The translations under genes and the position numbers were made by a program. 55,348 nt of DNA, taken from NCBI RefSeq assembly GCF_030053595.1, contig NZ_JASGBQ010000020.1, positions 1-55,348 on the forward strand. Reading direction: 5' to 3'. Each line of letters begins with the position of its first letter. The first letter of the stretch is position 1. The DNA comes from Fusibacillus kribbianus. Lineage in GTDB: Bacteria > Bacillota > Clostridia > Lachnospirales > Lachnospiraceae. Below are positions 326 to 2,643 of the stretch, one piece after another. The notes under the pieces are model-generated. The model had not been told where the DNA came from, did no database searches, and saw only the letters and a program-made list of their open reading frames with translations.

Positions 326-471
326 GATTAGCAGGTAGAGGGTATAGTTGAACGATGCACCATTTTTGGCGGGTCATTCAACTAAGCGTCCATCAAATTC
401 AATTTCGTCTTTCCGTAAAACGCGCCGACTTACTGAAAGTTTGCAACCTTAGAAATTAAAATTCATTAACA

Positions 472-1008
472 TTACGCTCTCCATTCCATCAACACACAAT
501 CTTCCTTCTTCCCTTCGTGTAGCTCATGTTCGGGAAGCTCCTTAATAATTTCAAATCCCGCCTTCTGATATGCTCGTACCGCTCGTGGATTATTTTTTCG
601 TGGGTCAAGAATCACCGCATCGGCATCCATTTCCGTTCGTAGATATTGGCATACTACTCTGCAATATTCTGCACCGATTCCCATATTCCAATATTCCGGC
701 TCACCGATAAATTGGTCCATCGCATAAATCTTTTCTTCCGTCTCATGGTAATCATATTCGTCGAAAAGTTCCCCCTGAATTCTGTATATTTGTGCGTAAC
801 CGATGGGAATTGTATCATATTCAATGATGACTCGATAAATCTCATCCGCCCATTGCTCTGTATAATGCTCACGAATCGTTTTCTGTGTATGCTTTTTATC
901 TCTACCGTCGTAAAATTCAAGAACACGGTCATCTGTCAGCCATTTTAACATTAGAACTAAATCATCCTCACTCATCGGGCGAAAGGAAACTCGCTTTTCT
1001 TCCAACAT
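472..1008 (-). CDS. aac(6')-Im: Aminoglycoside 6'-N-acetyltransferase AAC(6')-Im-like
   Basis: A 178-residue GNAT enzyme that would transfer acetyl from acetyl-CoA to the 6'-amino group of aminoglycosides in the cytoplasm. It is very close to the acetyltransferase half of the bifunctional AAC(6')-Ie enzyme: [20 protein letters not shown] near the N-terminus, [11 protein letters not shown] mid-protein, and [20 protein letters not shown] followed by [13 protein letters not shown] at the C-terminus. The length matches AAC(6')-Im, which is known as a neighbour of aph(2'')-Ib. GAGGTG eight bases before the ATG supports the start. It lies 43 bp downstream of the kinase gene on the same strand, and the pair fills the 1684-bp inter-repeat segment. 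No promoter of its own is evident. Confidence 0.9.
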
Positions 1009-1051
1009 AATTCACCTCTTCCATGATATAATTTCGCATCATCTTTTCCTG

Positions 1052-1951
1052 CTAAAATATAAACATCTCTGCTTGTGTCTGTAGCAATTCAGAAACACCC
1101 TTAATCAACATTTCCCTATCTTTTCTTTCATAACCATAAATGATTTGGTCTATCGACCAATACACATCATTAAGCTCTGCTTTTCTTTCTGCTACTTCCG
1201 GCGCCTTATGCTGATAGTATTTTAATACCTTCCTGCCAAATTCTTTCCCGAAATCATCTGTACTACAATCCAGCAAGCACAAAAAATCATTATCCGGGTC
1301 ACCTACATTAAAATCGCCAAAATCAATAACTCCAAACAGTCTATTATTTCTAAAAATCATGTTATTTGCACTGAAATCATTATGTACCAAACAAGGGGTA
1401 TATTTAAATAAAACAGCATTGCTTAATATGTTTTCATATATTGTTTCGATATGTTCCAACATCTCATCAGTTAACAGCTGCTCCTTTTCCAGAATACTTA
1501 TAAGTAATTTTTTATCTTGCAAAAACTTATCTTTCTTATTCACCAGAGCATCTGAAAACAAACTGACAGAACAATCAATCTCTATGGAATGTAACTCTTT
1601 CAAAAACGTAGCTTCATCATATGCAAGGGCATCCTTTTCCTTTTCACTCAACTTATGATACTGCTCATAAGTAATACGTTCCCCTTTAATATATTTCATA
1701 ATATTAAATCGGTCACTTTGATATACTACCGCAGGGGTCTGATAAGATAAATTACAATTTTCTAAAAAACGATACAATTCAAACTCTCGTTTCTGAGCAA
1801 ATCTAACTGAATCTCGCTTTGGAACTTTCACAACATATTGTTCATTACATAAAAAAGTATCGCTATCATCGCCTGATGACAAATAGCAGAGTTTATTTAT
1901 TTTTATCTGTTCATTCAAATGCTGATATATTTCTACGTCCAAATCAATCAT
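1052..1951 (-). CDS. aph(2'')-Ib: Aminoglycoside 2''-phosphotransferase APH(2'')-Ib
   Basis: A 299-residue aminoglycoside kinase that phosphorylates the 2''-hydroxyl of gentamicin-type drugs. From memory the sequence matches APH(2'')-Ib almost throughout: LSSGDDSDTFLCNEQYVVK for nucleotide binding, LVHNDFSANN with the catalytic Asp, and GVIDFGDFNVGDPDNDF with the metal-binding Asp. The ATG at 1951 has GAGGA about eight bases upstream and gives the usual length; an upstream TTG at 2008 behind GGAG would add 19 residues and is less likely. A TATAAA -10-like box lies at 2049-2054, only 12 bp inside the insert edge, with no good -35, so expression may depend on the array leader. First gene of the resistance pair. 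Confidence 0.93.
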   Translation of the reverse strand: MIDLDVEIYQHLNEQIKINKLCYLSSGDDSDTFLCNEQYVVKVPKRDSVRFAQKREFELYRFLENCNLSYQTPAVVYQSDRFNIMKYIKGERITYEQYHKLSEKEKDALAYDEATFLKELHSIEIDCSVSLFSDALVNKKDKFLQDKKLLISILEKEQLLTDEMLEHIETIYENILSNAVLFKYTPCLVHNDFSANNMIFRNNRLFGVIDFGDFNVGDPDNDFLCLLDCSTDDFGKEFGRKVLKYYQHKAPEVAERKAELNDVYWSIDQIIYGYERKDREMLIKGVSELLQTQAEMFIF

Positions 1952-2102
1952 TTCATTTTTCCTCACGTAAGGTATTAACAGAAACATCATATAATCGCTT
2001 ACTTTCAAGTTCTCCGTAAGCCTGAAAATTTAAGTTTTCTAAACACATTTTATACGTTCAGACACAGTTGAACGATGCACCATTTTTGGCGGGTCATTCA
2101 AC

Positions 2103-2607
2103 CTTGAGTGCTGCGAAAGCTGCAGCGATCTCAGGATATGTCACCTTGCCAACAGTTGCAGAAGTAGTCTTGTTTGCTGCAGCTGTGCCGGTCTTAACAG
2201 TGGAAACCATGTCATCAGCGATGGCATCGCCGAGGCTCTTTGCAATCTCCTGGATGAGGTACTGCTCAAGAGCATCGATGCTCATCTCAGCCTCAGCATA
2301 AGAGAGCTCGACAGCCTTTGCGAAGTCATTACCGGAAAGAGTAACCTTCACGAAAGTATTCTGCTCATCGTCTGTAGGAGCCTTTCCTTCGTTTGCCTTG
2401 GTCTGCTTAACAGCTGCACCAGCAACAACAGCTGTGTGCTTTACGATCTCGATGATTGTGCCGGTCTTAAGAGTGCGGACATCACCAACAATGCTGTGCT
2501 CCTTAGATACGAGATCCCAGATCTCATTGAGCATCGTTGTAGGAAGCACATTCGGAGTGCTCTGAGTAGTGTGGATGAAAGCTGTGTTTTCCAGCTTGGT
2601 CATCTGG
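2103..2607 (-). pseudogene. Internal fragment of a phage major capsid gene, as array insert
   Basis: The entire 505-bp segment between two repeats is open in one minus-strand frame (168 codons) and reads as part of an HK97-fold phage major capsid protein: MTKLENTAFIHTTQ, LPTTMLNEIWDLVSKE, VKVTLSGNDFAKAVELSYAE, and the end TYPEIAAAFAALK. Both ends of the gene are missing; coding sequence stops exactly at each repeat, and the open frame continues into the repeats only by chance. It is next to the leader, where the newest insert would be expected. The sense strand matches the direction of cas1, cas2 and the resistance genes. It cannot make a functional capsid. Confidence 0.85.
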
Positions 2608-2643
2608 GTTGAACGATGCACCATTTTTGGCGGGTCATTCAAC

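Follow-up and report, generated by a model that had tools for sequence, protein, structure and literature searches.

Can the adaptation proteins of a CRISPR system (clustered regularly interspaced short palindromic repeats) collect whole genes instead of short spacers? The question is raised by a locus at one end of a 55,348-bp stretch of Fusibacillus kribbianus (Lachnospiraceae) DNA, hereafter the window (assembly GCF_030053595.1, contig NZ_JASGBQ010000020.1, positions 1 to 55,348), in which three identical 36-bp repeats, separated by segments of 1684 and 505 bp, adjoin cas2 and cas1 genes. The Cas1-Cas2 complex sets spacer length, and CRISPR arrays are stores of short guide sequences; among natural systems that gather gene cassettes, integrons are the best known. 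Comparison of the window with related loci suggests, with a probability that we put at roughly 80%, that a type II-derived Cas1-Cas2 pair lacking Cas9 runs an integron-like gene-capture array on a mobilizable element.

Organization of the array

The repeats lie on the forward strand at positions 347–382 (leader-distal copy), 2067–2102 (middle copy) and 2608–2643 (leader-proximal copy), and delimit cassette 1 (383–2066) and cassette 2 (2103–2607). They are followed by a 66-bp leader (2644–2709), which is conserved beside the last repeat in many loci, and by cas2 (2710–3015) and type II cas1 (3012–3917), all on the reverse strand. An earlier note on this DNA had described three base-identical repeats with 1684- and 505-bp gaps, and the order repeat, leader, cas2 and cas1 on one strand; both descriptions agree with the coordinates, and the second is also borne out by profile matches. 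No further exact copy of the repeat is present in the 2.9-Mb genome, and a control search with the reversed sequence gave 0 matches. A variant with two mismatches is found close to the beginning of a different contig in the same genome (C46:891–926, locus L051), and is perhaps part of a second, broken array.

The proposal that the spacers of this array are genes holds for cassette 1 and fails for cassette 2. Cassette 1 consists of two whole genes, both on the reverse strand and reading away from the leader, which encode an AAC(6')-Im-like aminoglycoside acetyltransferase (472–1008; NF000016, 409.8 bits, cut-off 350) and an APH(2'')-IIa-like aminoglycoside phosphotransferase (1052–2008; NF000015, 690.7 bits, cut-off 625). 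Cassette 2 derives from the interior of a phage major capsid gene (Pfam Phage_capsid). No second copy of either cassette was found within the genome.

Distribution of the repeat and length of the intervals

The exact repeat was found in 29 stretches of GTDB-species genomes, corresponding to 23 genomes by accession. These are titled Lachnospiraceae, Eubacterium, Frisingicoccus, Flavonifractor or Clostridia, and several come from named animal gut samples. A Cas1 match is present in 12 of them, nearly full-length at an identity of at least 93% in nine and only as a piece in three. A relaxed repeat-core pattern occurs in 13 of 397 Lachnospiraceae genomes, and the same pattern read backwards in none among the matches listed. 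In the viral collection the core was detected in only two contigs, and the Cas1 relatives found there are 31–33% identical.

The exact repeat also occurs twice, at positions 991 and 2485, on the Campylobacter coli plasmid p13786 (L032, NZ_OQ553946.1), which is recorded as complete. This plasmid of human C. coli carries the repeat, the leader, cas2, a truncated cas1 and a cassette with aph(2'')-Ii and a GNAT gene, beside tet(O), and indicates that another phylum has been reached. Among 72,556 plasmids, a close Cas1 was found in p13786 only, the best other match among those listed being 34.9% identical. A 2024 article on Italian Campylobacter mentions cas1 and cas2 on p13786 as possible immunity (PMC10800408); the accessible portions of that article contain no mention of a cassette array. 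Within the accessible portions of the open-access literature, preprints aside, we found no description of such a system.

Repeat-to-repeat intervals were measured in 21 loci from 19 assemblies, including the window. The 38 intervals range from 68 to 3267 bp (median 1052), and none corresponds to a spacer of about 30 bp. The count takes in repeat variants with up to nine mismatches (L033, L050, L203 and L204) and L194 with its own repeat; it leaves out two contigs (L005/L015 and L020/L029) in which exact repeats are 7.7 kb and 21 kb apart, and which hold either very long cassettes or orphan repeats. According to the earlier note, related loci with spacers of 30–40 bp would speak against capture of long DNA. 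No such spacer was found among the 38 intervals; spacers of this kind were seen only where Cas1 is 31–36% identical, beside Cas9.

Empty and differently filled forms of the locus

An empty form of the locus, in which the conserved left end and the leader flank a single repeat, is found in Flavonifractor sp. AGMB03687 (L004/L046), on a contig of 546 kb whose title does not mark it as a metagenome bin. Differently filled forms are found on backbones that hardly vary. Along the backbone that joins the leader to the right end, the window is 99.98% identical to L013 over 5276 bp and 99.71% identical to L047 over 5259 bp, and it is 99.89% identical to the C. coli plasmid over 896 bp. Despite these near-identical backbones, the four loci have no common cassette in the parts compared. 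Empty and differently filled versions, both anticipated in the earlier note, thus exist.

Other loci have cassettes in common. L019 and L021 share a 1059-bp cassette (99.8% identity), to which L021 adds, nearer the leader, a cassette of 293 bp. A distal aph(3')-IIIa segment ends in the same way in the C. coli plasmid and in L048, where only 41 bp of it are visible, and the two loci differ on their leader sides. L007 and L049 share 1886 bp of one cassette (99.9% identity). Shared distal cassettes combined with differing leader-side cassettes would fit growth of the array at the leader end. L024 and L027 were considered as a further pair of leader-side alternatives and set aside: they have a common distal cassette, but their leader sides are not readable as clean alternative cassettes.

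Cas1 and Cas2 in the absence of Cas9

The proteins encoded beside the leader and the identical repeats match type II Cas1 (TIGR03639, 241 bits) and Cas2 (TIGR01573, also PF09827) above cut-off. The best solved-structure match of Cas2 is 5xvn, which we take to be the entry for Enterococcus faecalis Cas1. Cas1 aligns with 5xvn through E147, H202 and E217, presumably the catalytic residues of Cas1, all of which are kept. The ratio of nonsynonymous to synonymous substitution rates (dN/dS) between cas1 copies ranges from 0.03 to 0.22 in pairs with dS above zero, and cas1 is under purifying selection. The predicted Cas1 structure has a mean predicted local distance difference test score of 81.4 and a predicted template modelling score of 0.74 (13 sequences); no claim is based on this model.

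No Cas9 match was found in the genome of the window. Among 26 genomes or records, Cas9 exceeded the cut-off in one (G222), where it lies beside a separate Cas1 of 27% identity. With regard to the production of trans-activating and CRISPR RNAs, positions 1–12000 of the window gave no Rfam match.

A second lineage is represented by L194 (genome G605), in which Cas1 and Cas2 are 76% (residues 85–301) and 82% identical to the window proteins. The L194 repeat differs at 3 of 36 positions and is present in nine copies after cas2, the last of which has one change, enclosing eight cassettes of 249–1725 bp. Further copies of this repeat are found on two other contigs of G605 (C74:7734 and C96:7130). 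Outside this group, the nearest Cas1 proteins show 31–37% identity across most of their length, apart from a partial match of 40%. Five loci among these relatives (L197–L201, Cas1 31–36% identical), used as controls, have 36-bp repeats and spacers of about 27–31 bp, and Cas9 is encoded directly beside cas1 in all five genomes. No Cas9 match was found in the three further genomes with a close Cas1 (G605, G709 and G516). Close cas1 relatives with no Cas9 over cut-off, a search for which the earlier note had proposed, do exist.

Contents and sources of the cassettes

The full length of cassette 2 aligns with IMG/VR contig L065, with 489 of 505 nucleotides identical; two other contigs match at 487/504 and 458/505. 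In the source, the phage capsid gene continues past both ends of the cassette, and the repeat replaces phage sequence at one base. A collection of phage records gave no DNA match to this cassette. One end was placed in five more cassettes, two of them by weaker homology. For the aph(3')-IIIa cassette of p13786, the plasmid matches listed end at the repeat, and one that was examined continues into sat4. One end was also placed in L029, by comparison with L030, and in cassette 3 of L194, the last 263 bp of which recur on its own contig. In L052 and L003, one end was located by comparison with less similar viral contigs, and so only to within a few bases. None of the mapped sources (the phage capsid gene, the sat4-aphA3 region and four others) carries the repeat at the boundary.

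The viral relatives of an L021 cassette, at 75–76% identity, are too distant to place both ends and were rejected as a mapped source. The best long matches of three L047 cassettes in 20 genomes, their own host included, are 66–76% identical. Among 397 Lachnospiraceae genomes, searched at an E-value limit of 1e-60 with two candidates scored in each, only the genome of L194 itself gave a strong match to any of its eight cassettes.

Further cassettes contain pieces of ordinary bacterial genes, such as those for chemotaxis receptors, an ABC-type ATPase, a glycosyltransferase and a truncated chloramphenicol acetyltransferase. Others feature YjbR and O6-methylguanine-methyltransferase-like domains, a bactofilin gene with the start of an amino-acid-kinase-family gene, or a PadR regulator with DUF4097. 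Genes for methyl-accepting chemotaxis receptors are present in three arrays (L045 and L047, identified with Pfam, and L050, recognized by eye from the translation). A Pfam scan covered 40 of the 62 listed cassette open reading frames (ORFs); 16 of the 40 gave no family, and one is a transposase piece. Cassettes are arbitrary fragments, which often, though not always, include whole genes.

Cassette ends and the repeat hairpin

Base preferences were observed inside the cassette ends. At leader-side ends, the third base inward is A in 35 of 58 cases (p = 1.5e-5) and base 8 is G in 28 of 58 (p = 1.1e-5); at distal ends, the third base inward is T in 34 of 52 (p = 7e-8). Both cassette 3' ends accordingly tend to TNN. 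GG occurs within leader-side bases 7–9 in 20 of 58 ends, whereas control windows average 5.1 and never exceed 9. The preferences are conspicuous among 320 tests, made on a sample that includes partial cassettes and variant repeats, one of the 58 ends being the left end of the element (L009), and they hold after dropping L194 or taking one end per locus. Since neither random breakage nor exchange between repeats is expected to give such preferences, they point to a common enzyme.

The repeat is predicted to fold into a hairpin of 9+5 pairs (-16.1 kcal/mol, z -4.7), and three variants of the repeat fold similarly (z -4.8, -6.0 and -4.0). Five repeats of the Cas9-linked relatives, each analysed on one strand, form no stable hairpin (z 0.0 to 1.3).

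Promoter-like site and orientation of the cassette genes

A promoter-like site, TTGGCA-18-TATAAT, which matches the consensus at 11 of 12 positions, is located on the reverse strand at 2709–2738, where it overlaps the 3' end of cas2 and points into the array. In 14 of 18 leaders the best site is found at this position, 95–97 nt ahead of the repeat, and L194 has a weaker form (TTGGAG-18-TATAAT) at 99 nt. Of 36 cassettes, 29 by the original scoring (p = 3e-4), or 30 when the capsid frame is corrected, have a longest ORF that points away from the leader. Some other short cassettes (for instance, in L013 and L033) contain two long open frames, which makes their orientation ambiguous, and their original scores were kept. 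Of the 38 cassettes, 20 contain a complete ORF of at least 100 residues; the corresponding number is 10.6 ± 2.1 for length-matched random fragments drawn from a pool of other DNA and not from the true source genomes; none of 200 draws reached 20. The window and p13786 each carry complete aminoglycoside-resistance genes in this orientation, pointing away from the leader.

The host element and its decayed copies

The array belongs to a mobilizable integrative element, with a MobV relaxase, a large serine recombinase and defined ends. The left-end region (123–346) is 92–100% identical to eight loci that have it. To the right of cas1, the element encodes a helix-turn-helix regulator (3956–4759, reverse strand; Pfam HTH_19/HTH_3), a MobV-family relaxase (4931–5908, forward strand; NF041497, PF01076) and a large serine recombinase (6227–7852, forward strand; Resolvase, Recombinase, Zn_ribbon_recom and DUF4368). 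The right end is at 7890–7926; backbone homology stops at about 7919–7926, by our reading inside an interrupted helix-turn-helix gene. Alignment of 7 left and 10 right ends, each with different flanks, defines the ends of the element at different sites. To judge from the flanks, the element appears to interrupt genes for helix-turn-helix regulators within a Ser-Lys-Trp-Glu-like stretch.

In most copies, the backbone starts about 404 bp to the left of the first repeat. The window copy is without the outermost ~180 bp of this left end; positions 1–122 are other DNA in place of the missing part, and the contig starts only 122 bp further out. Directly beside the element, the window contains genes of neighbouring mobile elements, namely a second large serine recombinase (8547–10370) and a tyrosine integrase (10350–11333).

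Decayed copies carry deletions from the repeat, cas2 or cas1 to points deeper within the element or close to its right end. Decay was mapped near 3413 in L016 and L053, near 1623 in L019, near 5106–5260 in L001, near 43 in L018 and near 13990 in L055. In L053 the repeat marks the start of the deletion, as though the latter had been provoked by the enzyme or by the repeat. L033 (Lachnospira eligens, NC_012780.1, 7289–8447) is a diverged, apparently decaying copy with two repeats that share one variant sequence, a 676-bp interval, the leader and cas2; no cas1 match was found in that record.

Proposed mechanism and alternative explanations

We propose that the adaptation module has parted from Cas9. 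Cas1-Cas2 would take up linear double-stranded DNA, from tens of bases to more than 3 kb, and join both of its ends across the leader-proximal 36-bp repeat, which would be copied in the process; each event would add one cassette and one repeat on the leader side. The leader promoter would read into the array. Genes lying in that direction could be expressed and kept by selection, and useless fragments, such as the capsid piece, would be passengers. The element, with its MobV relaxase and large serine recombinase, would insert into helix-turn-helix regulator genes and spread among gut Clostridia, and Cas1-Cas2 would stand in for the integron integrase. We infer the integration of kilobase DNA by Cas1-Cas2, as well as addition at the leader end, the linear state of the captured DNA and expression from the promoter-like site. 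It seems likely, if slightly less so than the general proposal, that Cas1-Cas2 freed from both Cas9 and the length ruler takes kilobase DNA into a growing, leader-transcribed array, which would constitute a second, integron-like route by which bacteria collect genes, including resistance genes, with CRISPR components. The idea of the earlier note that Cas1-Cas2 captures kilobase DNA and that the array is a gene store is supported, with three amendments: the captured pieces are arbitrary fragments, the array resides on a mobilizable element, and the integration step is deduced.

Several observations weigh against gene capture by Cas1-Cas2. The evidence is wholly comparative. Both ends were mapped to a source in one cassette only, and the mapped ends, which are too few, yield no consensus for a protospacer adjacent motif outside the cassettes. 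Growth on the leader side relies on one full comparison, L019/L021, and L021 is also without its left repeat. Promoter-like sites in the leader region are no more numerous than expected by chance (1 versus 0.7 in shuffles), and the ambiguous frames of short cassettes and the origin of the random fragments bear on the orientation and ORF counts. The cas1 gene is truncated in p13786 and in L194, where an extra repeat copy before cas1 places cas1-cas2 between repeats. No array was detected in the stretches examined beside the close Cas1 relatives L195 (at a contig edge; G709) and L196 (broken; G516). Weak Cas9-profile matches of 20–25 bits (cut-off 100) were obtained in four more genomes, and likewise in 4 of 14 control genomes. 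The earlier note had also named repeats without cas1-cas2 as contrary evidence, and these do occur: no Cas1 match was found in 11 of the 23 exact-repeat genomes, and neither leader nor cas genes were found in the DNA examined near the repeats of L005, L010, L029, L203 and L204. Some of these cases are visibly decayed elements or contig-edge fragments. Most repeat-bearing loci come from metagenome bins.

Among the alternatives, the one that fares best, though we consider it unlikely, is that the repeats are sites of homologous or site-specific recombination, similar to pdif modules or attC, at which circular one-repeat modules are exchanged by RecA or a serine recombinase, with Cas1-Cas2 as a bystander. 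Repeats that form hairpins, a large serine recombinase within the element and several repeat-bearing genomes with no Cas1 match are all compatible with such a role. However, the mapped sources examined carry no repeat at the boundary, and none is found in the stretches examined of the Klebsiella and Enterococcus plasmids with a related aph-aac region (L034 and L035). The positional preferences inside the cassette ends are likewise not expected from repeat-to-repeat exchange.

It is very unlikely that the locus began as a normal CRISPR array and that its short spacers subsequently grew through transposon or phage insertions, deletions and rearrangements. Adjacent deletions and decayed copies are indeed common. 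Nevertheless, 0 of 38 intervals have the length of a normal spacer, the repeats are intact and flush with the inserts, and only the single transposase piece was seen among the 40 scanned cassette ORFs. The empty one-repeat form and the nine-repeat array of the second lineage (L194) contradict enlargement as well.

An assembly or binning artefact, in which reads were chained via the shared 36-bp repeat, is more improbable still, even with metagenome bins supplying most loci and with several repeats near contig ends. Misassembly, which the earlier note had raised as a concern, is unlikely as a general cause because long-interval arrays are found in 19 assemblies, one of them a plasmid recorded as complete with the same arrangement. 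It is made implausible also by the empty form, by the phage and aph(3')-IIIa fragments that meet the repeat at one exact base, and by the recurrence of the same cassette beside the repeat across assemblies (L007/L049 and L019/L021). We give equally little credence to long intervals that still serve as a guide-RNA store, with transcripts processed into guides for another effector acting in trans, an idea that draws on the stable hairpin of the repeat and the phage DNA captured in the window but is at odds with the lack of an above-cut-off Cas9 in 25 of the 26 genomes or records (no search was aimed at other effector classes) and with the many cassettes that hold complete bacterial-type genes in the reading direction.

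If gene capture by Cas1-Cas2 is the correct explanation, these proteins can act without a length limit and without an effector, and CRISPR repeats can border gene cassettes. Gut Clostridia would own a gene-hoarding platform, part of which, together with an aminoglycoside-resistance cassette, is already on a plasmid of a human pathogen (p13786). The determinant of spacer length, a long-standing question, would become directly testable, and the system might provide a tool for inserting kilobase DNA into a defined 36-bp site.

Comparison with known systems

We rate the locus as a new kind of system because the element encodes no integron integrase, and because it departs from type II CRISPR-Cas in Cas9 and in spacer length. 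It resembles type II CRISPR-Cas in having a type II Cas1 with conserved residues, Cas2, a leader by cas2, identical 36-bp repeats and a repeat-insert pattern as expected from repeat duplication. In contrast to type II systems, no Cas9 over cut-off is found in the genome of the window, the inserts (0.07–3.3 kb) have no fixed length and hold genes, the repeats are hairpins, and the array is carried by a mobilizable element.

As in integrons, as generally described, foreign cassettes lie close to a promoter, are bordered by short structured repeats, include resistance genes and are oriented away from the promoter. However, the recombinase inside the element is of the serine type, and the tyrosine integrase at 10350–11333 lies outside it. 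Unlike attC sites, for which models were not run, the repeats are identical CRISPR-type 36-mers. Moreover, the cassettes are arbitrary fragments, and the sources seen are without the repeat.

Casposons, as commonly understood, are similar in their use of Cas1 as an integrase of long DNA, a role that Cas1 would share here, and in the direct repeats at the target. They differ in that Cas1 is here accompanied by Cas2 beside the target array, and the element has its own serine recombinase. Cas1 matches are located on the leader side of the arrays and not within cassettes, except in L194, where a repeat also precedes the truncated cas1. Terminal inverted repeats of the casposon type were not systematically searched for in the cassettes beyond the three-base end preference.

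The element itself is most reminiscent of the mobilizable transposons known as Tn4451-like, which likewise combine a Mob-type relaxase with a large serine recombinase; on the Klebsiella plasmid, aph(2'')-IIa is surrounded by a similar arrangement of MobA/MobL, TnpW and a recombinase. In the accessible part of the open-access literature, a search for Cas1 together with Tn4451 turned up only a DNA-engineering review. The element described here differs from these transposons in carrying cas1-cas2 and a cassette array.

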